The notes under the pieces: model-generated
Seen by the model: only the letters and a program-made list of their open reading frames with translations
The model's database searches: none
Told to the model about the DNA's origin: nothing
Made by a program: the position numbers and the translations under genes
Shown here: piece by piece, positions 50,040 to 62,242 of the stretch
How the letters are laid out: each line of letters starts with the position of its first letter
Position numbering within the stretch: the stretch's first letter is position 1
Source of the DNA: Sulfuriferula plumbiphila
Lineage (GTDB): Bacteria; Pseudomonadota; Gammaproteobacteria; Burkholderiales; Sulfuriferulaceae
Length of the DNA: 64,000 nucleotides
Assembly (NCBI RefSeq): GCF_009938015.1
Contig: NZ_AP021884.1
Location: forward strand, 1 to 64,000
Direction of reading: 5' to 3'

Positions 50040-50234
50040 CTATTCCTGCATCAGTTCAAAATCGCTCTTGGTCACGCCGCAGTCCGGACACGCCCAGCTG
50101 TCGGGGATGTCTTCGAAACGGGTGCCGGGGGCAATTCCCTCATCGGGGATGCCACGTGCCTCGTCGTACACGTAGTCACAGATCATGCAGACCCACTTGC
50201 GGGTCAGCGTTCCAGTTTCAGTCATTGCGTTCAT
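50040..50234 (-). CDS. rubA: Rubredoxin
   Basis: A 64-residue single-iron electron carrier. The two iron-binding pairs are CMIC and CPDC in the usual contexts ([31 protein letters not shown]). An ~10-residue N-terminal tail precedes the fold. The start overlaps the DUF302 stop (ATGA). It is the last gene of the operon that begins with osmC and could pass electrons to the acyl-CoA dehydrogenase-like flavoprotein or to a peroxide reductase; that is inference. Confidence 0.97.
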
Positions 50235-50623
50235 GATGCCTGCCTGTAGGGGGTGAGGCTGGACAGGATTTTGCCGAAAATCGGCTGCAGCTCGGCTGCA
50301 ATTCCATCCAGCCGGAGGTTGCCGTAGGGGGCAAACACCGCGTCCGGGCTGCGCATGGCGACGTGGGTTTTGCCGTCCGCCTCGTAAACATGGATGCGCA
50401 GCGGGATGTCTATCCCGGCGCGTTTGTCTGCCTGCCAGACGCGCACCGCAAAATCCGGGCGGAATACCTCCAGAATCTGGTCGGCCGGCACCGTCATGCC
50501 GCGCCTGGCGGCGTTGGCCTGGCCGTCGATATGTGCGACCAGCCCCATCGGTGCGGCGAGGATGGCCTCGGTGAGCCTGGCGGTCGTGGCGTCCACATCC
50601 AGGTTGACGGTGAAAGTGATCAT
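50231..50623 (-). CDS. DUF302-family protein
   Basis: A 130-residue DUF302-type protein: [20 protein letters not shown], then [20 protein letters not shown], and [17 protein letters not shown]. The family often binds small molecules and is seen near sulfur or redox genes; the role is not settled. No signal peptide. It lies between the acyl-CoA dehydrogenase-like gene (26 bp) and rubredoxin (overlap), in the same operon. Confidence 0.8.
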
Positions 50624-50649
50624 TCAGGCTCCGTGGTCATGCGCTGCGT

Positions 50650-51801
50650 TTATGCACTGCATACGCGGCAGCCGCTGTCGATGTCGTGTAACTCTTTGCG
50701 TAAATGCTTGATGGCCGGGGTGACGATGGCCACAAAGTAGGCTTCGCGCATGCGCCGCTGCGCGGCGTTGCTCACCAGATATCCCTTGGCACCAAGATGC
50801 AGCATGGCGGAGTTGGCCGCCTTGAGCGACAGCTCGCTGCCCAGCAGGCGCAGGGCGATGGTGTCGCGCTCGTAGCCGGTGTCGGGCGAGGCGTCAATTT
50901 TGTCCGCCAGACGGTAACAGGCTGCGCGCGCGCCAAGCAGCGCCGCTTCGACATCTTCGGCCTGATCATCGAGGAAACGGTTGACGTGCCCGTGGGTTTT
51001 ATTGGAGCGCTTCATCATGCTCACGCAGGCATCCACCAGTCCCAGTCCCATGCCCATCTGCATCAGGATAAAGGCGGATTTGGTGCGCGTGCGAAAGCGC
51101 TCGAATTCACTCGGATGCGATACCACGGCAGCGTCGGCGATGAATACATCCTTGAACTGGCAGGCAAAGGTATTGGTCCCCTCCATGGCAATAAAATGCG
51201 CATTCTGGCTGAGGGTCAGGCCGGGGCAGTCGCCGCGCACCAGAGCGATCATCAACCCCGGTTCGCCGGCCACGTCTATGCCGACGTGGAAATAATGGTC
51301 CGCGCCGATGTTGGATACCCACGGCAGCGTGCCATTCACGCAATAGCCGCCATTCACGCGCACTGCCTTGAGGCGATTTTCCTCGATGGCGACGCAGGCT
51401 TTCATTGCATTCGACTGGCCGGTGCCGCCCAACACCTTGCCCCCGGCGATTTGCGGCAACACGCTGTTACGAATCGCAATATTGCTGCTGTTTTGCAGGT
51501 ACCAGGCACAGGCATTCTGCGCCCATACCAGAAAGCCGGTGGAAACACATTCGCGCGACACGTCCTCGATTACCCGCACCGCGTTTTTCAACCCCTTGCC
51601 CGTACCGCCGAACTGCGGCACGACCATCGCGCCAAAGCCGCCGATTGCGCCGAGCCGGTGCAGAAACTCACCCGGGTATTCGCCTTTGATATCAATATCC
51701 AGCACGTGCGGGCAAAGGTGGTCGCGGATCAGCGCGGTGATGCCGGGCAGGGATTCACCGGCGTCGGCTTCCTGCGCATATTTCAACATTTCGACTTGCA
51801 T
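50650..51801 (-). CDS. Acyl-CoA dehydrogenase-like flavoprotein
   Basis: A 383-residue member of the acyl-CoA dehydrogenase superfamily. It has an N-terminal helical domain (PGITALIRDHLCPHVLDIDI), a middle beta domain (GTGQSNAMKACVAIEENRLK, LPWVSNIGADHYFHVGIDVA) and a C-terminal helical domain (MGMGLGLVDACVSMMKRSNK). This superfamily also includes SfnB/DszC-like flavin monooxygenases acting on organosulfur compounds. No thiolase or enoyl-CoA hydratase is nearby, so fatty-acid oxidation is unlikely. The C-terminus ends oddly in CRVCSA. It is downstream of osmC in a sigma-54 operon. The substrate is unknown. Confidence 0.82.
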   Translation of the reverse strand: MQVEMLKYAQEADAGESLPGITALIRDHLCPHVLDIDIKGEYPGEFLHRLGAIGGFGAMVVPQFGGTGKGLKNAVRVIEDVSRECVSTGFLVWAQNACAWYLQNSSNIAIRNSVLPQIAGGKVLGGTGQSNAMKACVAIEENRLKAVRVNGGYCVNGTLPWVSNIGADHYFHVGIDVAGEPGLMIALVRGDCPGLTLSQNAHFIAMEGTNTFACQFKDVFIADAAVVSHPSEFERFRTRTKSAFILMQMGMGLGLVDACVSMMKRSNKTHGHVNRFLDDQAEDVEAALLGARAACYRLADKIDASPDTGYERDTIALRLLGSELSLKAANSAMLHLGAKGYLVSNAAQRRMREAYFVAIVTPAIKHLRKELHDIDSGCRVCSA

Positions 51802-51868
51802 CACAGCTCCTTATTTCCCACCTGGCTGCCCGGGACAGGCAGCCATGCGCATTTTTTAAATTCTGTCA

Positions 51869-52411
51869 TCAGGCCAGGGCCACCGTCACGCCCACCGGAT
51901 TGCGCAGGGTATTGGCCACCGGCGACCACTGATTGGCATGTGCGACGAGCGATTGCAGCTCGCTGTCGCTGGCATCGCCTTCGAGATGCACCTTGACGCG
52001 AATATCGGTAAAACCCAGCACCTTGCCCGGCGACACGTCGCCCACGCCCCATACTGCGGTGACGTTGATATCACCCTCCAGCTCCAGCTCGATCCTGGAA
52101 AGTGCGATGCCACGTGCGACGGCATTGGCGTGCAGGCCGACCGACAGGCACGAGCCCAGCGTGGCCAGGGCTGCTTCGGAAGGATTGGGTGCGCTGTCAT
52201 CGCCGAGCAGGTGGGGCGGCTCATCAATCACATGTGCGGGCAAGTTGCGCACGAAATTGAGGTTGCGGAATTTGCTCTCGCATACCGTTCTTGTTTTCAG
52301 CGTGACCACATTCTGTGGATTGGCCTTGCCTTTTTGCGCCAGCCCATCGAGCCCGTTTTTATCTATCGGGGTCAGCGTGGTGGTCATTTTCAGTGCGGCA
52401 ACTTCGGACAT
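51869..52411 (-). CDS. OsmC-family peroxide/thiol protein
   Basis: A 180-residue OsmC-like protein; the family reduces organic hydroperoxides through two cysteines. NPSEAALATLGSCLSVGLHA contains the conserved second Cys and its helix. The first redox Cys may be in RTVCESKFRNLNF, an unusual position, so peroxidase activity is not assured. It is the first gene of the operon osmC - acyl-CoA dehydrogenase-like - DUF302 - rubredoxin. A -24/-12 promoter sits about 60-75 bp upstream. Confidence 0.85.
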   Translation of the reverse strand: MSEVAALKMTTTLTPIDKNGLDGLAQKGKANPQNVVTLKTRTVCESKFRNLNFVRNLPAHVIDEPPHLLGDDSAPNPSEAALATLGSCLSVGLHANAVARGIALSRIELELEGDINVTAVWGVGDVSPGKVLGFTDIRVKVHLEGDASDSELQSLVAHANQWSPVANTLRNPVGVTVALA

Positions 52412-52470
52412 GGTTTATTCCTCCTGGTGTTAAACGAATATTGGTGGCCTGTAGGGCACGCCGATATCTA

Positions 52471-52486
52471 CGCAAGCGCCATGCCA
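52471..52486 (-). promoter_or_regulatory. Sigma-54 promoter of the osmC operon
   Basis: On the minus strand TGGCATGGCGCTTGCG fits TGGCACG-N4-TTGC, with GG and GC ten bases apart. It lies 60 bp upstream of the osmC start. The upstream-adjacent gene is the sigma-54 activator, reading the same way. Confidence 0.75.
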
Positions 52487-52570
52487 GAGCCATTTTGTCT
52501 AAGTAATGCAATGATTTTAAATGTTATTTCAGGCAGTATGGGAAATTGAAACGGTGCTGCTGGTAGACAG

Positions 52571-52585
52571 ATTGTTAACAATTTG
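52571..52585. promoter_or_regulatory. Candidate activator site upstream of the osmC promoter
   Basis: Perfect 12-bp palindrome ATTGTTAACAAT at 52571-52582, overlapping the decamer TAACAATTTG at 52576-52585. The same decamer lies upstream of the cyn-type promoter (54223-54232). It is about 85 bp upstream of the -24 element, a typical enhancer distance. Confidence 0.6.
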
Positions 52586-52612
52586 CACGACAGCTTTCTG
52601 TACGCGGTCGGG

Positions 52613-54202
52613 TCAGGCAATTCCCAGGCGCTGAATCCGATAATTCAGCTGGCGCAAGGTCATGCCTATGTGCTGTGCCGCGCGCGACTTGTTGCCATTA
52701 CATAGCGCCAGTGCCTGCACGATGCTGTCGCGCTCGGCTGCCTGCACTGCATGGTAGGGGCGCAAACCGTCCGGTGTTGCGGTCACAAACGTGGTAACCG
52801 GGCGCGCCACGGGCTCGCTGACCGTTTCACCGGCAATCACCGCGACCACCTCCGCGGCACCAATCAGCCGGTTCTCGGAGAGCAGCGCCAGCCGCTCCAG
52901 CACGTTGCGCAATTGCCGCACATTGCCCGGCCAGCTATAAGCAGCCAGTCGCTCCAGCGCATCCGGGGCGATATTCACATTGCGCTGGTAGCTCTGGTTG
53001 ATCTGGTTCAGGTAATAGCGCACCAGATGGCGGATGTCTTCCGGGCGCTCCTGCAGGGAAGGCAGCCGCACTGGGATGACGTTGACCCGATAAAACAAAT
53101 CCAGACGAAATTTGCCGCGGCTCACCAGTTGCTGCAAATCCTGATTGGTGGCGGCGACGATGCGAACATTGACCGGGGTTTCGCGGCGTGCGCCGACGCG
53201 CTGGATGGTGTTCTCCTGCAATACGCGCAGCAGTTTGACCTGCATCGCCAGCGGCATGTCGCCAATTTCATCGAGAAACAGGCTGCCATTGTTGGCCTGC
53301 TCGAAATAACCGGGGCGGCTGCTGGTGGCGCCGGTAAACGCGCCTTTTTCATAGCCAAACAGCTCGGATTCGAACAGGTTTTCCGGAATCGCACCGCAGT
53401 TGACCTTGATGAAGGGATGGTCGCGGCGCGCACTGGACAGGTGCAGGGCGCGTGCGAACAGCTCCTTTCCGGTGCCGGATTCGCCCAGTAGCAGTACCGT
53501 CGCATCGGTTTGTGCCACCTGTTCAACCTGCTTTAATGCGCGGCGCAGCGGCATGGATTCGCCGACAATGCCAAATGCGCCCGGAGTCGATGGATTCTTG
53601 TTCAGCGCCCATTTCAGCTCACGGTTTTCCGACTCCAGGCGCGCGGTATGTTCCTGAATGTGACGGTTGAGCATGATTACCTGCGCAATCAGCGTGGCGG
53701 CAATTTTCAGTATTTGCAGATCGCGCGCCAGCGGTCGCGGGCGGTCGCGCAGCCGGTGCACGCCGAGCACCCCGAGCACCTGGCCGCCCTGCTCCACGGG
53801 CATGGCAATAAAGGACACCGTTTCGTGCGGCAGATGCTCACGTGCCACGCTGCGGAACAGGAACGCCGGCTCATTATCCACATCCTGAATAATCACCATT
53901 TGCCCGCTCTGCATCACGCGCCCGGTGATCCCCTCGCCAGGCTGGAAGCGCCCGCGTTTCATCTCTTGCCTGGATAATCCATAGGCGTGGGCGATATGCA
54001 ACGCTGCACTCTCGGCGTCAGGCAGCACCACGCGTCCCCGGTTCAAGCCGAGCAACTCGGACAGCAAATGCAAAATCTCGCGGATGACATAGTTCTGATC
54101 CGGGCTTTTTCCCATCAGTGCGGAGGCTTCGCGAATCACCAGCAATTCTTCGTCCACCAGAATTTCCGGTGGCGGACGGTGGGCGGTTTGGGCGTCAAGC
54201 AT
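52613..54202 (-). CDS. Sigma-54 enhancer-binding activator with GAF domain
   Basis: A 529-residue NifA-like activator. The N-terminal GAF domain (about residues 30-175) contains [40 protein letters not shown] and [20 protein letters not shown]. The AAA+ domain has Walker [12 protein letters not shown], the sigma-54 motif [10 protein letters not shown], and Walker [12 protein letters not shown]. The C-terminal Fis HTH is [23 protein letters not shown] 54202 is the plausible start; the frame is open further upstream only. It sits between two operons with -24/-12 promoters and shared upstream motifs, so it is their likely activator. The GAF ligand is unknown. Confidence 0.92.
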
Positions 54203-54222
54203 GGGTGCAGCTCCTGCAGAAA

Positions 54223-54241
54223 TAACAATTTGTCTACACAA
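54223..54241. promoter_or_regulatory. Candidate activator site upstream of the cyanate operon
   Basis: The decamer TAACAATTTG (54223-54232) is followed by the dyad TTGT-CTAC-ACAA at 54230-54241. It is about 85 bp upstream of the -24 element. It matches the site near the osmC operon and lies just upstream of the activator's own start. Confidence 0.6.
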
Positions 54242-54322
54242 TGTAAGCAAAAACCGGACGCACGCCGTACTGGCGATCTTGGCCATAGGCTGCAGATGGC
54301 GTGGAAAGGCGATTTGTCGAAC

Positions 54323-54338
54323 TGGCACGTTTGCTGCT
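54323..54338 (+). promoter_or_regulatory. Sigma-54 promoter of the rhodanese-cyanate operon
   Basis: TGGCACGTTTGCTGCT matches the sigma-54 consensus TGGCACG-N4-TTGCW with one mismatch; GG and GC are ten bases apart. It lies 40 bp upstream of the rhodanese start at 54378, leaving about 28 bp of leader. This implies dependence on an enhancer-binding protein, most likely the divergent one. Confidence 0.88.
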
Positions 54339-54377
54339 CTTGTGATGCATGCCCAAACCAGCACAAAAGGAATCAGC

Positions 54378-55241
54378 ATGAGCGGCCAAGTCTTGATCGA
54401 ACCAGCACAATTGCAACAAGCCATGGCCACCGAGCCCATCGTGGTAATCGACACGCGCGATCCGGGTGCTTACGCCAGGGGACATATTCCGGGCGCGGTC
54501 AACCTGCGCGAGATTTTTACCTACCTCGCCACCACCGACCACGAAGGCCTGGAAGCCATGCAGCACAAATTCGCCGCGGCATTTGGCGCGGCAGGCTTGT
54601 CCGGCAAGGAAACCGCAGTGGTCTACGAAGACACCATGAACACCGGTTTTGGGCAATCTTGCCGGGGTTATTTTCTGCTCAAATATCTGGGCTACCCCAA
54701 GGCCAGAGTGCTGCACGGCGGTTATCAGGCCTGGGTCAGCGCCGGCCTGCCCGCCACCACCGAGCCCACTCTGCCTGCGCCCGCCCAATTCCCGCTCGCC
54801 AGTGCACCGGGTGCGGTAATGGTGGACAAGGACGAAATGCTGGCAGCGCTGAATGACCCGTCAGTGATCAAGCTGGACGTGCGTGATGTAGACGAATGGA
54901 TCGCCACCAGCTCCTCGCCTTACGGCCCGGATTTTTGCCCGCGCAAAGGCCGTATCCCCGGCGCGCGATGGCTGGAGTGGTATCGGCTGATGAAGCCCGC
55001 AGACGGGGGCAGCATGGTCAAGTTCAAGGCGCGCGATGAAGTACTGGCGGAGTGCCAGACCGTCGGCATCCAGCCGCACTCCAGGGTTTACATTTATTGC
55101 TTCAAGGGCGCGCGTGCTTCCAATACCTTTCTGGCATTGAAAGAGGCGGGTGTGCATGACGTGAAAATCTACTTCGGTTCATGGAACGAGTGGTCACGCG
55201 ACCCGGCGCTGCCGATTGAAGAAGGCTTTCCGGCTGCCTGA
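54378..55241 (+). CDS. Two-domain sulfurtransferase (rhodanese)
   Basis: A 287-residue tandem rhodanese of the SseA/thiosulfate sulfurtransferase type. Domain 1 ([20 protein letters not shown]) lacks the catalytic Cys. Domain 2 ([31 protein letters not shown]) has the active loop YCFKGARAS with Cys. ATG 54378 follows AAAAGGAATC. No signal peptide, so cytosolic. It opens the operon with the ABC transporter and cyanase. It could make thiocyanate from cyanide, or handle sulfur from imported cyanate-linked compounds such as thiocyanate breakdown products; the true donor is unknown. Confidence 0.9.
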
Positions 55242-55302
55242 GACTGACATCACTTTTAACCAGTCGCTACCAACATCAGCCATCAATATCAGGGAGATAT
55301 CC

Positions 55303-56652
55303 ATGTCCGGTTTTGACGATCCGTTTGATCCTAATATCCAGCTCTCCGGCAAGGGTTGCAGCTGTGGCCGCCACGCCAGCCAGGCCGAGCACCGGCAGGA
55401 CGAGGACGCCCGTATCAGCCGGGTGGTTGAATCCACGGTGATGCGCGCACTGTTTCCGCATGACGAGACGCGCCGCAACTTTATTCGCGCGGTGGGCGCG
55501 GGCACTGCGCTGGCGGCGGTTTCCACTTTCTTTCCGCTATCCGCCGCCAGGGCGCTTGCTGCAGACCGTGCCGCGCTGGAAAAAACCGACCTGAAAATCG
55601 GCTTCGTCCCCATTACCTGCGCCACGCCCATCATCATGGCCGGACCGATGGGCTTCTACTCGCGCGAGGGTTTGAATGTCTCTTTGCTCAAAACAGCGGG
55701 TTGGGCCGTGGTGCGCGACAAGGTGATGAACAAGGAATACGACGCTTCGCACATGCTCTCGCCAATGCCGCTCGCCATCAGCCTGGGGCTGGGTTCGCAG
55801 GCACAGCCGGTGGCCGTGGCCGCGATCGAGAACATCAACGGCCAGGCCATCACCCTGCATGTGAAGCACAAGGACAAGCTCGATCCCAAACAGTGGAAAG
55901 GCTTCAAGTTCGGCCTGCCGTTCGACTACTCGATTCACAATCTGCTGCTGCGTTATTTCCTGGCCGAACATGGCCTGGATCCGGACCAGGACGTGGAACT
56001 GCGCATCATGTCGCCGCCCGACATGGTGGCCAATCTGCGCGCCGGCAACATCGACGGCTTCCTCGGGCCGGAACCGTTCAACCAGCGCGCAGTGTACGAG
56101 GAAGTGGGCTTCATCCACACCCTGTCGCGCGACATCTGGGACGGCCATCCGTGCTGCGCCTTCGGCGTGTCGGAGGGGTTCGCCAAGACCCATCCCAATA
56201 CCTTCGCCGCGCTGTTCCGCGCCATTGCCAGCGCCACTGACTACGCCCACAAACCGGAAAACCGCGCCGACATCATCAAGGCCATCGCCCCGGCGAATTA
56301 CCTCAACCAGCCCATCCCGGTGCTGGAGCAGGTGATGACCGGGCGCTTCGCCGACGGCCTGGGCAAGGTGCGCAACGTGCCCGACCGGGTGGATTTCGAC
56401 CCGTTCCCGTGGCCGTCCATGGCGGTGTGGATGCTGAGCCAGCTCAAGCGCTGGGGTTATCTCAAGGGCGAGGTGAACTACCGGCAAGTGGCGGAAAACG
56501 TGTTCCTCGCCACCGATGCGCGCAAGCGCCTGAAAGAGATGGGCTTGCCTGTCCCTGCCAGCAACTACGCCAGGTACACCATCATGGGCAAGGTGTTCGA
56601 CCCTGCCAAACCGGAGCAATACCTGAAGTCGTTCAAGATCAGCCGGGCATGA
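55303..56652 (+). CDS. ABC substrate-binding protein, NrtA/CmpA/CynA-like
   Basis: A 449-residue periplasmic binding protein of the nitrate/bicarbonate/cyanate class. ATG 55303 follows AGGGAG. An unusually long N-terminal cytoplasmic part (residues 1-55) with GCSCGRH precedes a Tat-type signal TRRNFIRAVGAGTALAAVST. The binding fold follows (KIGFVPITCATPIIMAGPMG, MLSPMPLAISLGLG, RAGNIDGFLGPEPFNQRAVY). The partner permease starts in its stop codon. With cyanase downstream, cyanate is the best guess for ligand; nitrate or bicarbonate remain possible because the class is broad. Confidence 0.85.
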   Translation: MSGFDDPFDPNIQLSGKGCSCGRHASQAEHRQDEDARISRVVESTVMRALFPHDETRRNFIRAVGAGTALAAVSTFFPLSAARALAADRAALEKTDLKIGFVPITCATPIIMAGPMGFYSREGLNVSLLKTAGWAVVRDKVMNKEYDASHMLSPMPLAISLGLGSQAQPVAVAAIENINGQAITLHVKHKDKLDPKQWKGFKFGLPFDYSIHNLLLRYFLAEHGLDPDQDVELRIMSPPDMVANLRAGNIDGFLGPEPFNQRAVYEEVGFIHTLSRDIWDGHPCCAFGVSEGFAKTHPNTFAALFRAIASATDYAHKPENRADIIKAIAPANYLNQPIPVLEQVMTGRFADGLGKVRNVPDRVDFDPFPWPSMAVWMLSQLKRWGYLKGEVNYRQVAENVFLATDARKRLKEMGLPVPASNYARYTIMGKVFDPAKPEQYLKSFKISRA

Positions 56653-57494
56653 TCATGACCAAGTCGCTGAATTTCAAATCACTGCTTATATCCGTGCTGC
56701 TGCTGTGCGCTTTGCTGCTGGGATGGTATATCGCCACCCTGCCGCAGGCGGCGCTCACGGCCAATGTAGACCCCGAATACGCGGCGCTGATGGGCGGCGG
56801 TGCGGTGAAGAAATCGGGGATGCCGACACCGGCCGAATTTGGTCACACACTGCGCGAACGGCTGTCGGACCCGTTCTATGACCACGGCCCAAACGACAAG
56901 GGCATCGGCATCCAGCTCGCCTATTCGCTGGCGCGGGTGCTGTCCGGGTTTGCGCTGGCCGCGCTGGTGGCCATCCCGCTGGGTTTTGTGGTGGGCATGT
57001 CGCCGCTGATGCAGCGCGCACTCAACCCCTACATCCAGTTGCTCAAGCCGATTTCGCCGCTGGCGTGGATGCCGCTGGCACTCTATACCATCAAGGACTC
57101 GTCCGCTTCGGCGATTTTCGTGATTTTCATCTGCTCGCTGTGGCCGATGCTGATCAACACCGCCTACGGTGTAGCCGCGGTCAGGCGCGACTGGCTCGAT
57201 GTCGCCAAAACACTGGAGGTGTCAGCGCTGCGCAAAGCGTTCCAGGTGGTGCTGCCCGCTGCCGCGCCCACCATCCTCACCGGGATGCGCATTTCCATGG
57301 GCATTGCCTGGCTGGTGATCGTGGCGGCGGAAATGCTGGTGGGCGGCACCGGCATCGGCTACTTTGTGTGGAACGAGTGGAACAACCTGAGTCTCACCAA
57401 CGTCATCTTCGCCATCCTCATGATCGGCGTGGTGGGCATGATGCTGGACATGATGTTCGGCGGGCTGTCGCGGCTGGTGGCGTATAACGATTGA
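56649..57494 (+). CDS. ABC transporter permease (cyanate/nitrate type)
   Basis: A 281-residue inner-membrane permease of the NrtB/SsuC class. ATG 56649 overlaps the binding-protein stop (ATGA); a second ATG at 56655 is possible. About six membrane helices; the coupling loop RRDWLDVAKTLEVSALRKAF precedes VVLPAAAPTILTGMRISMGI and LVIVAAEMLVGGTGIGYFVW, both class hallmarks. A periplasmic loop after the first helix (about residues 30-80) is longer than usual. Next comes the ATPase gene after 10 bp. Confidence 0.9.
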   Translation: MIMTKSLNFKSLLISVLLLCALLLGWYIATLPQAALTANVDPEYAALMGGGAVKKSGMPTPAEFGHTLRERLSDPFYDHGPNDKGIGIQLAYSLARVLSGFALAALVAIPLGFVVGMSPLMQRALNPYIQLLKPISPLAWMPLALYTIKDSSASAIFVIFICSLWPMLINTAYGVAAVRRDWLDVAKTLEVSALRKAFQVVLPAAAPTILTGMRISMGIAWLVIVAAEMLVGGTGIGYFVWNEWNNLSLTNVIFAILMIGVVGMMLDMMFGGLSRLVAYND

Positions 57495-57504
57495 GGTCTG
57501 GACC

Positions 57505-58416
57505 ATGCAAACCGATTTTTTGAAAGTTGAAGCCCTGAGCCGGGTATATCCGGCCAGTCGCGGTCAGGCGCCGCTGGTGGTGTTCGAGAACATCCATTTC
57601 AGCATCGGCAAGGGCGAATTCGTCTGCATCATCGGCCACTCCGGCTGCGGCAAATCCACCATCCTCAACGTACTGGCCGGGCTGGATGAGCCCAGCGCCG
57701 GCGTGGTGATCATGGATGGGCGCGAGGTGGCCGGCCCCAGCCTGGATCGCGGCGTAGTGTTTCAGGGCCACGCGCTGATGCCGTGGCTGTCGGTGATGAA
57801 AAATATCGAATTCGCCGTCAAGTCACGCTGGCCGGACTGGCCAAAAGACAAAGTACGCAGCCACTGCCAGCAGTTTATCGATCTGGTAGGCTTGACCGGT
57901 GCCGAGCATAAAAAGCCCTCCGAACTTTCCGGCGGCATGAAGCAGCGCGTGGGTATCGCCCGCGCCTTTTCCATCCAGCCGAAAATGCTGCTGCTGGATG
58001 AGCCCTTCGGCGCGCTTGATGCGCTGACCCGCGGCGTAATTCAGGATGAACTGCTGAAAATCTGCGCCTCCACCGGGCAAACCGTGTTCATGATTACCCA
58101 CGACGTGGACGAAGCCATGCTGCTGTCCGACAAGATCATCCTGATGACCAACGGTCCGCGCGCCCGTATCGCCGAAATCGTGGTGAATACGCTGCCGCGC
58201 AACCGCACCCGCAACGACGTGCACAAGGATCCACAGTACTACCGCATCCGCAACCATCTGGTGGATTTCCTGGTGAGCCGCTCGCGCGAGATGGCGCAGG
58301 CGCCCGCCGCAGACAGCGACCCGCGCCACCCGCCCGAAGTCAGGCCGGGCGAAATGGATGATGATCCGATAGCAACGCCGCGTGTGCAAAAACAGCCTGC
58401 CATGCACCTGGTGTAA
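57505..58416 (+). CDS. ABC transporter ATPase (cyanate/nitrate type)
   Basis: A 303-residue ATPase. Walker A GHSGCGKST, signature LSGGMKQRVGIARAF, Walker B MLLLDEPFGALDAL, and the H-loop ITHDVDEAM are intact. The C-terminal region beyond residue 250 (PAADSDPRHPPEVRPGEMDD) is an extra tail not seen in typical TauB/SsuB-like ATPases. It is cotranscribed with the permease and precedes cynS by 28 bp. Confidence 0.9.
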   Translation: MQTDFLKVEALSRVYPASRGQAPLVVFENIHFSIGKGEFVCIIGHSGCGKSTILNVLAGLDEPSAGVVIMDGREVAGPSLDRGVVFQGHALMPWLSVMKNIEFAVKSRWPDWPKDKVRSHCQQFIDLVGLTGAEHKKPSELSGGMKQRVGIARAFSIQPKMLLLDEPFGALDALTRGVIQDELLKICASTGQTVFMITHDVDEAMLLSDKIILMTNGPRARIAEIVVNTLPRNRTRNDVHKDPQYYRIRNHLVDFLVSRSREMAQAPAADSDPRHPPEVRPGEMDDDPIATPRVQKQPAMHLV

Positions 58417-58444
58417 TCACTCAACAACCTGACAAGGAGAAACC

Positions 58445-58888
58445 ATGCAGCGTACCGAAGTCACCGCAATCATCGTCGCCGCCAAGCTCAAAAAATGCCT
58501 GAAATGGGCAGACATTGCCAAAAAAATCGGCTTGAGCAAGGAATGGACAACCGCCGCGCTGATGGGACAAATGACCCTGGACAAGAAACAGGCCACCACT
58601 ATCGGCAAGCTGCTCGGACTGCCGCCGGAAGCCGTGGACGCGCTGCAAATCGTTCCCTACAAAGGTTCGCTGCCCAGCGCCATCCCCACCGACCCGCTGA
58701 TCTACCGTTTTTATGAGTTGATCAACGTCTATGGCACCAGCATCAAGGCACTGATCCACGAGGAATTCGGCGACGGTATCATGAGCGCCATTGATTTCAG
58801 CATGGATATCCAGCGCGAGACCGACCCCAAGGGCGACCGCGTCAAGATTGTGCTGAACGGAAAATTTTTGCCCTACAAGACATACTGA
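58445..58888 (+). CDS. cynS: Cyanate hydratase (cyanase)
   Basis: Converts cyanate plus bicarbonate to ammonia and CO2. The 147 residues have the N-terminal helical domain and the C-terminal catalytic part. The active-site residues known from E. coli are all present: Arg88 and Glu91 in YRFYE, and Ser114 in MSAIDF. A ribosome-binding AAGGAG lies 6 bp upstream of ATG 58445. As the last gene of the operon it gives the transporter its likely substrate and makes nitrogen available to glnA. In an autotroph the CO2 released could be fixed too. Confidence 0.97.
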   Translation: MQRTEVTAIIVAAKLKKCLKWADIAKKIGLSKEWTTAALMGQMTLDKKQATTIGKLLGLPPEAVDALQIVPYKGSLPSAIPTDPLIYRFYELINVYGTSIKALIHEEFGDGIMSAIDFSMDIQRETDPKGDRVKIVLNGKFLPYKTY

Positions 58889-58997: not shown

Positions 58998-61397
58998 TTA
59001 CCCTTGCAGAGCCGGGTGATCGGCTATCGGGCGGTCCAGGAAATAACCCTGCACGAAGTCGACCCCGAACTGGGTCAACAGATCGAGTGTGGCCTCATCC
59101 TCCACGAATTCGGCCACGGTGACCTTGCCCATTCCCCTGGCAACGTCGGCAATGGATTTGACGAACAACTGGTTGTCATGATCATGGGGCAGGTCGCGGA
59201 TGAACAGGCCGTCAATTTTCAATGTGTCCACCTTGAGGTATTTGAGATAAGCAAAAGACGAGAAGCCGGTACCGAAATCGTCCAGGCAGGTGGAGCAGCC
59301 GGTCAGATGAACGGCTTCGATGAAACGTCCTGCGTCATGCAGGTCGCCGATCGCTGAAGTCTCGGTGATCTCTATCAGCAGACGGCTGGGGTCGACGGCA
59401 TGCCGGATCAGGGTGTCCTGAATGTAGCGAGGCAATGACGGGTCTGCCAGGGAGCGCCCGGAAAGATTGATTGCCAGGGCGCGCAGCCTGGGATGGTGTG
59501 CCAGGGTGGCGACAGCCTCCCCGATCACCCAGCGGTCAAGCTCGAGGATTTTGCCGGTCTTTTCGGCGATGGTGATGAATAGCCCGGGCATGATCAACTG
59601 TTCCGGTTTTTCCTCATCAACGATACGTACCAATGCCTCGAGGTGCGACAGGGTGCGATCGGCGCTGTGATACACACCCTGGAAATGCAGCCGGAACAGG
59701 TCTTTTTCGAATGCGCGCGACAGCCGGTCATTCCAGGTGAGGCGGGCGACCATCTCCTTGCCCATATCCAGCTCGGGACGGTATACCTGCCAGGTGTTCT
59801 TGCCACATGCCTTGGCCTGGTACATGGCGGTGTCGGCATGGGCGATCAGCTCCTCGATAGAGGAACCATGTTGCGGATAAAGCGCGATCCCCAGGCTCAC
59901 CGTGACGCGCAGCGGCTGGTCGTCAAAAATGAGCGGGAGCCGGGCGATGGCCCGCACGACACGGTCCGCCAGACCTTCAGCCTGTTTCAGATCGGAAACC
60001 TGGGGGATCAGCAATGCGAATTCGTCGCCGCCCAGCCGGGCGAGGACCTCGTTGCGGCGCACCAGGGCGGAAAGTTCTGTTGCGACACGGATCAACGTGG
60101 CGTCGCCCGCATGGTGTCCGAAAGTGTCGTTAATGTACTTGAATTCGTCCAGATCGAAGAACAGCAACGCTCCCTGGCTGCCCGTGCGCCCTGCATCAGC
60201 AAGCAGCTTTTCCATCTCCTCGCGCAGGCGGTGGCGATTGAACAAGCCGGTAAGGGAGTCGCGCTCGGCGAGATAGATGAGTTGCTGGGCGGTCTGCTGC
60301 TCCTGGGTGACATCCTCGAACATCCACAGGTGGCCGGTAAACTTGTTTGCGTTGTCGTATACCGGGTGGCTGAGCCGGGTCACCAGCCGGCCATCGGCCA
60401 GGCGGATTTCAGTGGCCTGGCGGTCTTCATGGGGGCCCGCCGGTTCCGCCATCAGCTCAGCGAGCTGGTCCGGTTCGGCCAGTGTACAGCCGGTCTGGAT
60501 GATCGCCTCGGCGGGGAACTTGCCATGCAAAGACAGGCCCATGGGCAGTCTCCAGATATGCTGAAACGCAGGGTTGTAATAGATGATGCGGTTGTTCGTA
60601 TCGGCAAACAAAATACCCAGTTTCATGGCGTGCAGCAATGCGACCAGGCGCGCCTGCTCTTCATGCAACTGGGCCGTGCTTCCCTTGAGCGCACCGATCT
60701 GTGCGGCTATGGCGTCAGCCATGGAATTGAAGGCATGGGTGAGCGAGCCGACCTCGTCATCGCTGAGTACCGGCAGACGGATATCCAGCTGCCCTTGGGC
60801 AAAGGCTTCGGAGGCGCGGGTCAGGCTGGCGAGGTGACGCGTCAACCAGAATCCCAGACCCGCCAGCAGCAGGGTCGACAAGAGAATTTCCACGCCCGCG
60901 ATCAACATGCTTTGTCGAACCAGGTGAACACGTGCCTCTGTCAGAAATGCAGTGGAAACACCATAGTGGAGTGTGCCGTATTCCTGGCCCGCCAGCATGA
61001 TTTGCGTGCTGGTATCAAACCGGCCTGCGCCGGTGTCGGCAACTTTCGTTGACGGAGCGACAACCGGCAATGTTCGTCCTTTTTTCCAGCCGGCGGATGC
61101 AACGACATGTCCGGAGCGATCGACCAGCACGGCATAGACAATCCCTTCCAGGCGCTCACTCTCGGCAAGTATCTCATTCAGGGTGGCGTAATCCCGCTGA
61201 GATAGCGGCGCGGCGAGGGCCGCATTGAACAGGGTGTTGAGCTCCGTGTAGCGCGCCCGCGCCTGGGCGAGCAGACTGTCCTGGCTCAGGCGTACGCTGT
61301 TGACCACCAGCAGGGTCAGCATCACCGCTTCCACGATCAGCGAGAGCAGTACCAGCTTGGAACGCAGTGACAAACCGCGCGGCATCTTCAATAACAA
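58998..61397 (-). CDS. Membrane GGDEF-EAL protein (c-di-GMP turnover)
   Basis: A 799-residue signalling protein. Two membrane helices (residues about 12-30 and 160-182) bracket a periplasmic sensor. Then come HAMP (FAQGQLDIRLPVLSDDEVGS), a PAS domain (FADTNNRIIYYNPAFQHIWR), GGDEF (VLARLGGDEFALLIPQ, catalytic motif intact), and EAL (LSHLEALVR; CLDDFGTGFSS; DTLKIDGLFIRDL). Both enzymatic motifs look usable, so it could make or break c-di-GMP. The upstream gene (61400-62242) is a PhnD-like binding protein 2 bp away, so the sensor may use it as periplasmic input. Confidence 0.9.
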   Translation of the reverse strand: MLLKMPRGLSLRSKLVLLSLIVEAVMLTLLVVNSVRLSQDSLLAQARARYTELNTLFNAALAAPLSQRDYATLNEILAESERLEGIVYAVLVDRSGHVVASAGWKKGRTLPVVAPSTKVADTGAGRFDTSTQIMLAGQEYGTLHYGVSTAFLTEARVHLVRQSMLIAGVEILLSTLLLAGLGFWLTRHLASLTRASEAFAQGQLDIRLPVLSDDEVGSLTHAFNSMADAIAAQIGALKGSTAQLHEEQARLVALLHAMKLGILFADTNNRIIYYNPAFQHIWRLPMGLSLHGKFPAEAIIQTGCTLAEPDQLAELMAEPAGPHEDRQATEIRLADGRLVTRLSHPVYDNANKFTGHLWMFEDVTQEQQTAQQLIYLAERDSLTGLFNRHRLREEMEKLLADAGRTGSQGALLFFDLDEFKYINDTFGHHAGDATLIRVATELSALVRRNEVLARLGGDEFALLIPQVSDLKQAEGLADRVVRAIARLPLIFDDQPLRVTVSLGIALYPQHGSSIEELIAHADTAMYQAKACGKNTWQVYRPELDMGKEMVARLTWNDRLSRAFEKDLFRLHFQGVYHSADRTLSHLEALVRIVDEEKPEQLIMPGLFITIAEKTGKILELDRWVIGEAVATLAHHPRLRALAINLSGRSLADPSLPRYIQDTLIRHAVDPSRLLIEITETSAIGDLHDAGRFIEAVHLTGCSTCLDDFGTGFSSFAYLKYLKVDTLKIDGLFIRDLPHDHDNQLFVKSIADVARGMGKVTVAEFVEDEATLDLLTQFGVDFVQGYFLDRPIADHPALQG

Positions 61398-61399
61398 GG

Positions 61400-62242
61400 C
61401 TAGTGGCCCAGGTGTTGCTGAAGATATTGGGTATAGGGATCGAGGGACTTCATTTCCTCGGGCGTGATTTCACGCATGCCCTGATAGCCAGTCACTTCGA
61501 AAAATTGTTTGCCTTCAGGCAAATCCGGGGAAAAAGCGAGCAGAGCCGGTTTGAGGCGCGCAACTTCACGTGCCAGGCGCGGATTGGCCAGCCACATGAG
61601 GCCGGGTATTGCAGGCAGTTTGGCAAAAACCTGGAGGCCATCCCGGAGGTTCGCTGGCATCTGCTTCCAGCCCGCCGGCGAGATGATGGCCAGCGCGCTT
61701 TCTCCGCTCAGTACCGAGTAGGCGGCACTGTTGTGGCTGGGTGTCTCCAGCAGCCGGAAGTCGATACGTTCCCGCAATCCCTGCGTTTCCAGCCACAACA
61801 AGGCCTGCCCGGTAATCAGGGCAAAGCGATCCAGGGTGGCGACCGCATGCCCGCGCAAATCCCGGATGGATTTGAGCGGGGCGGCCCGGGAGGTCATCAG
61901 CATTGCCCGATTCGCCGCTTTGTAGGTCGCCAGGGGCAGATAACCACCTTCCATTTGGGCGAGCCGACCCAGGTGAGCGGCCGTCACCACGATGTCGTAA
62001 TCGCCCGCCATCGTGCCCTTGTGGAAGGCAGCGAAATCCGTCGCCGTCACCATCTCCACGGGGCGCTTTAGCGTCTGTTCCAGATAGGCGCGAAACGGTT
62101 GGTAGTTATTGAGCAGGACGCGCGGACTCAGGGTCGGCAACACGCCCACGATCAGCAGGGTTCCCTGCGCCGCACCCGGAATGGGCCATAGCGCCAGCAG
62201 GCAGGCCAGTAGCCAGCCTCTACCAGACAAGAACCTTCCCAT
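61400..62242 (-). CDS. PhnD-like periplasmic binding protein
   Basis: A 280-residue exported protein (signal peptide about residues 1-26, ending GAAQG). LLIVGVLPTLSPRVLLNNYQ and AFHKGTMAGDYDIVVTAAHL are typical of phosphate/phosphonate-type (PhnD) binding folds. No ABC transporter genes adjoin; instead it precedes the GGDEF-EAL gene by 2 bp, so it is probably a sensory subunit rather than a transporter component. The ligand is unknown. Confidence 0.85.
   Translation of the reverse strand: MGRFLSGRGWLLACLLALWPIPGAAQGTLLIVGVLPTLSPRVLLNNYQPFRAYLEQTLKRPVEMVTATDFAAFHKGTMAGDYDIVVTAAHLGRLAQMEGGYLPLATYKAANRAMLMTSRAAPLKSIRDLRGHAVATLDRFALITGQALLWLETQGLRERIDFRLLETPSHNSAAYSVLSGESALAIISPAGWKQMPANLRDGLQVFAKLPAIPGLMWLANPRLAREVARLKPALLAFSPDLPEGKQFFEVTGYQGMREITPEEMKSLDPYTQYLQQHLGH

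Follow-up and report, generated by a model that had tools for sequence, protein, structure and literature searches.

The window analysed here comprises bases 1 to 64,000 of the complete, single-contig genome of the sulfur-oxidising bacterium Sulfuriferula plumbiphila (3,452,774 bases), and the locus of interest is a block of ten genes between positions 50,040 and 58,888, in which the gene of a sigma-54 activator lies between an OsmC/flavoprotein/rubredoxin operon and a cyanate (cyn) operon. Sequence comparison showed that a two-operon regulon, the conservation of its partner module and the tie of this module to cyanase are well supported. The reading proposed for this regulon, to which we give a probability of about 0.5, is that the module makes cyanate for the cyanase CynS out of a carbon-nitrogen-sulfur (C-N-S) compound, most likely thiocyanate.

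All ten genes were identified by Pfam and NCBIfam profiles. The leftward operon (minus strand) contains, in order, the genes of an OsmC-like protein (51869 to 52411; PF02566), a flavoprotein of the acyl-CoA dehydrogenase type (50650 to 51804), a DUF302 protein of unknown function (50231 to 50623; PF03625, E = 7.7e-14) and a rubredoxin (50040 to 50234; PF00301, E = 2.6e-23). The rightward operon (plus strand) comprises the genes of a two-domain rhodanese, that is, a sulfurtransferase (54378 to 55241; two stretches matching PF00581), a CynA-type substrate-binding protein of the NMT1_2 family (55303 to 56652; PF13379) with kin among NrtA, CmpA and NrtC in the PDB, a CynB-type (NtrB-type) permease (56649 to 57494; TIGR01183), a CynD-type (NtrCD-type) ATPase (57505 to 58416; TIGR01184) and CynS (58445 to 58888; TIGR00673 and PF02560). 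The matches of the last three to these profiles were above the cut-offs, and the assignment of the transporter to the Nrt/Cmp/Cyn group of ATP-binding cassette (ABC) transporters, which relies on the ntrB and ntrCD profiles, holds. The activator gene (52613 to 54202, minus strand) diverges from the cyn operon, giving the order activator, (rhodanese), CynA, CynB, CynD, CynS. Its product was confirmed by Pfam and NCBIfam to combine a GAF domain, a sigma-54 AAA+ domain and a Fis helix-turn-helix; the start codon was chosen by comparison with homologues, the reading frame being open upstream as far as 54454.

A -24/-12 sigma-54 promoter element was found before each operon, at the place given in the preliminary description of this DNA: TGGCATGGCGCTTGCG (52471 to 52486, minus strand) before the OsmC gene and TGGCACGTTTGCTGCT (54323 to 54338, plus strand) before the rhodanese gene. 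Each differs by one mismatch from the search pattern and is kept in relatives; the one-mismatch pattern alone was not significant in the window (five matches, 3.18 expected). The same description had drawn attention to an identical decamer, TAACAATTTG, near each promoter (52576 to 52585 and 54223 to 54232). The decamer does occur twice in the window (0.12 copies expected; one of 100 shuffles reached two) and four times in the genome, and the window copies lie 89-90 bp from each -24 element; however, both are on the plus strand and thus face opposite ways relative to their promoters, and the decamer was therefore rejected as the binding site. Read in the direction of each promoter, the two regions have in common a palindrome, TTGTTAACAA (52572 to 52581, minus strand) and TTGTCTACACAA (54230 to 54241, plus strand), recognised by alignment and by the composite search described below, and it is the better candidate for the site of the activator.

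The palindrome and the promoter were joined in a composite pattern (TTGT-N2-4-ACAA-N72-102-TGGCAY-N6-TGC), which was searched in 21 genomes with the pattern read backward as the control. In the genome of S. plumbiphila exactly two matches were obtained, which are the two operon promoters, and the control gave none. Six of the seven module-bearing genomes matched, five at both promoters (G000, which is the genome of S. plumbiphila itself, G002, G007, G011 and G012) and one at a single promoter (G006), with no match in G022. Matches outside the module numbered two in G007 and one in G006, and the control had one match in G023. Among the other 14 genomes, which were called module-less by the demonstrated lack of the flavoprotein (G009 and six more) or by the lack of a DUF302 match (the rest), only G009 matched, and its control matched once as well. 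G009 is 64% complete, and its matching contig carries relatives of CynA and CynB. A looser palindrome, ACAAWTTGTNNACA with one mismatch allowed, gave 17 sites in the genome against four for its control and was dropped in favour of the cleaner composite pattern.

Alignment of 11 loci (the window, L035 to L040 and L048 to L051) revealed conserved footprints in both intergenic regions. On the OsmC side, the -24/-12 element scored at least 10 of 12 in all 11 loci, and TTGT-N-ACAA palindromes were present upstream in all except L051. The cyn-side promoter set also had 11 loci, with L075 replacing L051; the element scored 10-11 of 12 in ten of them and 6 in L075, and a strict palindrome was located 79-82 bases upstream of it in seven, the sequences of L037, L039, L040 and L075 not fitting. 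The test was extended to 26 of the 32 OsmC loci (omitting L083, L105, L110, L112, L113 and L114), and an element scoring at least 9 was found before the OsmC gene in 20, with a random-window rate of 0.0005-0.036 for each, but not in L072, L073, L082, L107, L109 and L117. For L104, the OsmC start was chosen anew after the element proved too near the start chosen first. From these patterns we infer that the activator would open both sigma-54 promoters by binding the TTGT-N2-4-ACAA palindrome, which precedes each -24/-12 element by about 81-85 bp.

The genes are conserved together with the promoters in the relatives, as a comparison of related genomes proposed in the preliminary description was meant to establish. 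The nearest named relative found was Sulfuriferula multivorans TTN (L035; activator 91% identical). Ten close loci, the window included, share the block; it is complete in L035, L036, L037, L038, L048 and L050, and only the rhodanese gene is missing in L039, L040 and L049. In a sample of 18 genomes of the genus (G000 to G017), the flavoprotein was present in eight, all with cyanase, and cyanase was present in 11. The rhodanese had been assigned to the cyn operon; this arrangement is seen in seven of the ten close loci, but its absence from three excludes it as a fixed member, and in distant genomes the rhodanese gene accompanies the OsmC and flavoprotein genes and not cynABDS. A variant was seen on contig 59 of the incomplete genome G009 (L175), where a rhodanese gene lies directly upstream of cynS with no transporter gene between them.

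Two other features of this stretch were recorded. The N-terminus of the CynA-type protein (encoded in 55303 to 55450) has a CSCGxH motif, kept in all 11 aligned rows, ahead of a leader that by eye resembles a twin-arginine signal. Downstream of cynS (58998 to 62242) are genes for a HAMP-GGDEF-EAL protein and an adjoining phosphonate-type binding protein (Pfam); among the loci of ten relatives, several of which are short stretches, this pair was found only in S. multivorans.

The partner module consists of OsmC and the acyl-CoA-dehydrogenase-fold flavoprotein, often with a two-domain rhodanese and/or a rubredoxin, and it recurs across the alpha-, beta- and gammaproteobacteria. The survey, seeded with the flavoprotein, covered eight of 28 plasmid records (18 of the 28 being from Pseudosulfitobacter) and all 15 other hits in a sample of 398 genomes of the phylum. 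The flavoprotein was present in 16 of the 398 genomes and cyanase in 69, with both in 13, six of them from family f88 (Fisher p = 1.7e-8, uncorrected for kinship), and a cyanase gene lay within about 11 kb of the flavoprotein gene in ten of the 16. Cyanase and the OsmC/flavoprotein pair are encoded in one cluster in Caballeronia (activator-OsmC-flavoprotein-rubredoxin/reductase-CynA-B-D-CynS), on an Acetobacter plasmid (OsmC-flavoprotein-rubredoxin/reductase-CynABD-CynS-porin-sigma-54 regulator), on a Marinobacter plasmid (transporter-activator-OsmC-flavoprotein-rubredoxin/reductase-CynS) and in several sampled genomes, among them G696 (transporter-OsmC-flavoprotein-rhodanese-CynS). The plasmids of Pseudosulfitobacter and Rhodobacteraceae SC52 carry transporter-OsmC-flavoprotein-rhodanese, with no cyanase gene within the examined stretch. 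In the distant clusters, identity is 63-68% for the rhodanese and about 38-46% for the flavoprotein. Because the transporter in the clusters of G696 and Marinobacter is not CynABD, cyanate is probably a product there rather than an import. The earlier proposal that a single regulon joins the two operons thus gains support from the joint conservation of genes and promoters and from these single clusters in other taxa.

A different setting was seen in L115 and L081 (NZ_CP119140.1, a chromosome-sized sequence of 2.17 Mb filed as a plasmid), both of which encode, according to Pfam, a membrane D-lactate dehydrogenase upstream of the flavoprotein-rubredoxin pair. In L115, the place immediately ahead of the flavoprotein gene, where OsmC would be expected, is taken by a gene of the CMD family.

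The activator was compared with known regulators. Its score against the NifA profile TIGR01817 (469.5 bits) is below the cut-off (528.85), and orthology to NifA was rejected. In the activator tree, the OsmC-side GAF activators were separated, with support of 100/100, from six activators encoded beside cynABDS in families f88, f78 and f101. The member of this second clade from G496, the only one scanned, has a PAS domain (Pfam); the start rule trimmed the N-termini of most cynABDS-side activators, and their lengths carry no meaning. Both kinds occur in G542 and G496, so that the two operons can apparently have separate switches in distant genomes. In the lineage of the window, the OsmC-type activator appears to control both, as suggested by where its gene lies and by the sites that the promoters share. 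In SC52, a TetR-type regulator gene lies upstream of the OsmC gene instead. The preliminary description had held that cyn genes usually lack a dedicated sigma-54 regulator, and the lack of a precedent has to be given up: in Pseudomonas pseudoalcaligenes CECT5344, the sigma-54 Fis-type activator CynF is encoded divergently from cynABDS, which has a -24/-12 promoter, and is essential for its expression (PMC6627978). A dedicated sigma-54 cyn activator is therefore already known, and the partner module is the part for which a description was not found. Two features of the window go beyond cynFABDS, namely a rhodanese gene at the start of the cyn operon and another operon controlled by the same activator; OsmC and rubredoxin were not found by a word search of the CynF paper (PMC6627978), and the CynF sequence itself is outside the activator tree.

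The link to thiocyanate comes from a second cluster in the same genome, near 1.10-1.11 Mb (L148; 1,099,000 to 1,118,000), where a second cyanase gene (product 52% identical) adjoins a thiocyanate hydrolase set together with genes for two permeases, a methyltransferase and a LysR regulator. This cluster also holds an open reading frame that by eye resembles a transposase gene. The gamma subunit of the hydrolase scored 399.6 bits against TIGR03887 (cut-off 291.45) and matched the solved structure 2dd4 (E = 1e-145), and the cluster holds the only match to the nitrile hydratase alpha family among the 18 genomes of the genus. By Pfam, none of the ten block genes encodes a thiocyanate hydrolase subunit. 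A similar cluster of scnABC, a NitT/TauT-type transporter and cyanase has been described in Thiobacillus thioparus (PMC5328954).

The transporter type linked to the hydrolase recurs in eight flavoprotein clusters that do not contain CynABD (L072, L073, L083, L084, L107, L113, L116 and L117). Between the hydrolase cluster and these clusters, the binding proteins are 43-59% identical, the permeases 50-65% (the nearer of the two copies) and the ATPases 45-57% (seven full-length rows, the eighth being partial). Against CynABD-type transporters and Escherichia coli Tau and Ssu, the values were at most 28% for the binding protein and at most 38% for the ATPase, and for the permeases at most 40% (the other copy with L085) or 38% (the nearer copy). 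Sequence identity thus sets the hydrolase-linked type apart strongly by its binding protein and less so by its ATPase; TauA and SsuA were compared pairwise and are not in the binding-protein tree. In 14 chosen genomes, all eight binding proteins with at least 46% identity are encoded next to thiocyanate hydrolase (G000, G354 and G242) or an acyl-CoA-dehydrogenase-like flavoprotein (G696, G584, G549, G303 and G496), and the remaining 16 matches had 37% or less. When these genomes were chosen, the transporter was already known to lie within the module in four of them and next to thiocyanate hydrolase in three, and the test shows just that they contain no further close homologue of the binding protein elsewhere. 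This kinship favours thiocyanate or a similar compound as the likely substrate.

Gene replacement bears on the same point. In G354, all that is left is DUF302, rubredoxin and a C-terminal piece of the flavoprotein, and the activator, OsmC and the flavoprotein are lost in G242, where CynABDS and DUF302 are kept; both genomes have a thiocyanate hydrolase, with a gamma subunit 89% identical to that of S. plumbiphila. G380 belongs to the genus of G354; it carries the module in full and gave no match to the nitrile hydratase family. Since cyanase alone is no marker of the cyanate route (PMC5328954, PMC6504805), the argument rests on the transporter and on this replacement.

In the proposed mechanism, the CynABD-type transporter of the right operon would import a small pseudohalide anion, and CynS would hydrolyse cyanate to ammonia and CO2. 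The left operon and the rhodanese would form a separable enzyme module, in which the flavoprotein would turn the C-N-S compound, most likely thiocyanate, into cyanate, a step that we infer from gene context only. The rhodanese and the single-cysteine OsmC protein would relay the sulfur, with rubredoxin as the putative electron carrier; the substrate, the direction of electron flow and the sulfur transfer are all predictions.

The flavoprotein has the Pfam domains and the fold of acyl-CoA dehydrogenases, as judged from alignments and from the AlphaFold model (mean predicted local distance difference test score, pLDDT, 91.5), whose best Foldseek template modelling (TM) score was 0.84 to members of this superfamily (16-24% identity; 50 solved chains listed). 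By register, it appears to have no Glu at either of the positions that we take to be catalytic in the superfamily: no Glu is seen in the profile at the base position of the isovaleryl enzyme, and Thr362 falls at the Glu site of the medium- and short-chain enzymes (MCAD and SCAD) by an ungapped count from the R-E/D-A motif, the printed alignments stopping short of this site. In the OsmC protein, C88 is invariant in 18 of 18 aligned rows; it is the first cysteine of the OsmC/Ohr peroxidases, and no second conserved cysteine was found in the 18 rows, so that the protein lacks the two-cysteine signature of these peroxidases. C95 and C241 of the rhodanese are invariant in 12 of 12 rows, as is its catalytic cysteine loop, CFKGARA.

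Several results weigh against the conversion of thiocyanate to cyanate by the module. Cyanase is missing from three of the 16 genomes with the flavoprotein (G060, G303 and G584). Near the flavoprotein gene, a rubredoxin domain is encoded in six of the 16, a rhodanese in ten and OsmC in 14; the routes proposed for electrons and sulfur thus do not hold throughout, and the two without OsmC (L115 and L116) have a CMD-family gene there instead. S. plumbiphila has both the module and a thiocyanate hydrolase with the second cyanase, and a match to the nitrile hydratase family, of unassigned type, was obtained in nine of the other 15 sampled genomes with the flavoprotein; the two systems are thus not mutually exclusive. 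The transporter of the window is of the CynABD type and not of the hydrolase-linked type, and thiocyanate transport by the latter is itself only presumed; the genomes examined for it include none lacking both systems. The flavoprotein of G496 is divergent (29% identical to that of the window, below the Pfam cut-off). In open-licence PubMed Central (PMC) literature, no biochemical data on the module enzymes were found.

The first alternative is plain cyanate assimilation of the CynF-cynABDS type, in which the only role of OsmC, the flavoprotein, rubredoxin and rhodanese would be to shield thiols from cyanate and oxidants or to repair them. Both OsmC and its CMD-family replacement in L086, L115 and L116 belong to what are presumably thiol-redox families. 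The precedent of CynF (PMC6627978) and the rise of oxidative-stress enzymes caused by cyanate in Chromobacterium (PMC3927592) also agree with this view. Nevertheless, we regard it as rather unlikely, given the loss of the second OsmC cysteine, the flavoprotein in the three genomes without any cyanase and the flavoprotein clusters of Methylocystis, Pseudosulfitobacter and SC52, in whose examined stretches no cyanase gene lies nearby. Several cyanase-less clusters carry an importer of their own, and a flavoprotein with a dedicated transporter looks catabolic.

Somewhat less probable still is a second alternative, that the flavoprotein oxidises another C-N or C-S compound, such as cyanide, a nitrile, an isothiocyanate or a sulfonate-like compound, with cyanate as the product or a by-product. 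The flavoprotein matched sulfur enzymes in NCBIfam, a desulfinase best and SfnB and DszC as well, all far below the cut-offs, and a cyanide monooxygenase that would yield cyanate has been proposed and never shown (PMC11049912). On contig 5 of G496 (L203), the gene of a CynA-type binding protein (51% identical to that of the window) directly precedes the alpha/beta genes of a nitrile-hydratase-like set. The kinship of the transporters points instead to the thiocyanate hydrolase cluster, and for free HCN an ABC importer should be unnecessary. Finally, that the operons are chance neighbours with a coincidentally shared decamer, as the shuffles and the non-significant -24/-12 pattern taken alone would permit, is highly improbable in view of the conserved genes, palindromes and promoters and the joint clusters in other classes.

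If the module does convert thiocyanate to cyanate, it would differ from the systems already described. In the portion of the literature at hand, only thiocyanate hydrolase, of the carbonyl sulfide (COS) route, and the copper thiocyanate dehydrogenase are named as primary thiocyanate enzymes (PMC5328954). The scnABC cluster resembles the module in having a cyanase nearby and, in the copy of S. plumbiphila, a transporter subfamily common to the eight flavoprotein clusters; its enzyme is hydrolytic and gives COS, and flavoprotein, OsmC and rhodanese are not mentioned in the available part of that paper (PMC5328954). Thiocyanate dehydrogenase, of the cyanate pathway in Thioalkalivibrio, would share cyanate plus sulfur as products with the proposed module, and it is a copper enzyme exported to the periplasm (PMC5328954, PMC6504805); no match to its family was found in the Pfam and NCBIfam scans of the block proteins, no genome-wide search having been made. 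An OsmC/rhodanese cluster in Rhodococcus serves another substrate, and its acyl-CoA dehydrogenase is encoded elsewhere (PMC5157978). In the open-licence PMC literature, whose matching papers were checked in part, no description of the OsmC/flavoprotein module was found, and in papers that mention the gene names of the cluster together, the words stand apart and the cluster is undescribed in the parts checked.

More tentatively, bacteria may possess in this module a third route, for thiocyanate or a closely related compound: a presumably cytoplasmic flavoprotein/rhodanese/OsmC system that would oxidise the sulfur away and supply cyanate to cyanase, spread over alpha-, beta- and gammaproteobacteria and, in Sulfuriferula and Thiobacillus relatives, controlled by a single sigma-54 activator; we hold this wider reading to be possible but somewhat doubtful. 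Thiocyanate is a common pollutant from mining and coking as well as a metabolite of plants and animals. This conserved, cyanase-tied module, with an importer of the subfamily that also occurs in a thiocyanate hydrolase cluster, is a testable candidate for a third thiocyanate enzyme. If true, this would account for some cyanases being encoded in clusters that lack a CynABD importer, and a so far uncharacterised branch of the acyl-CoA dehydrogenase fold would gain a function.

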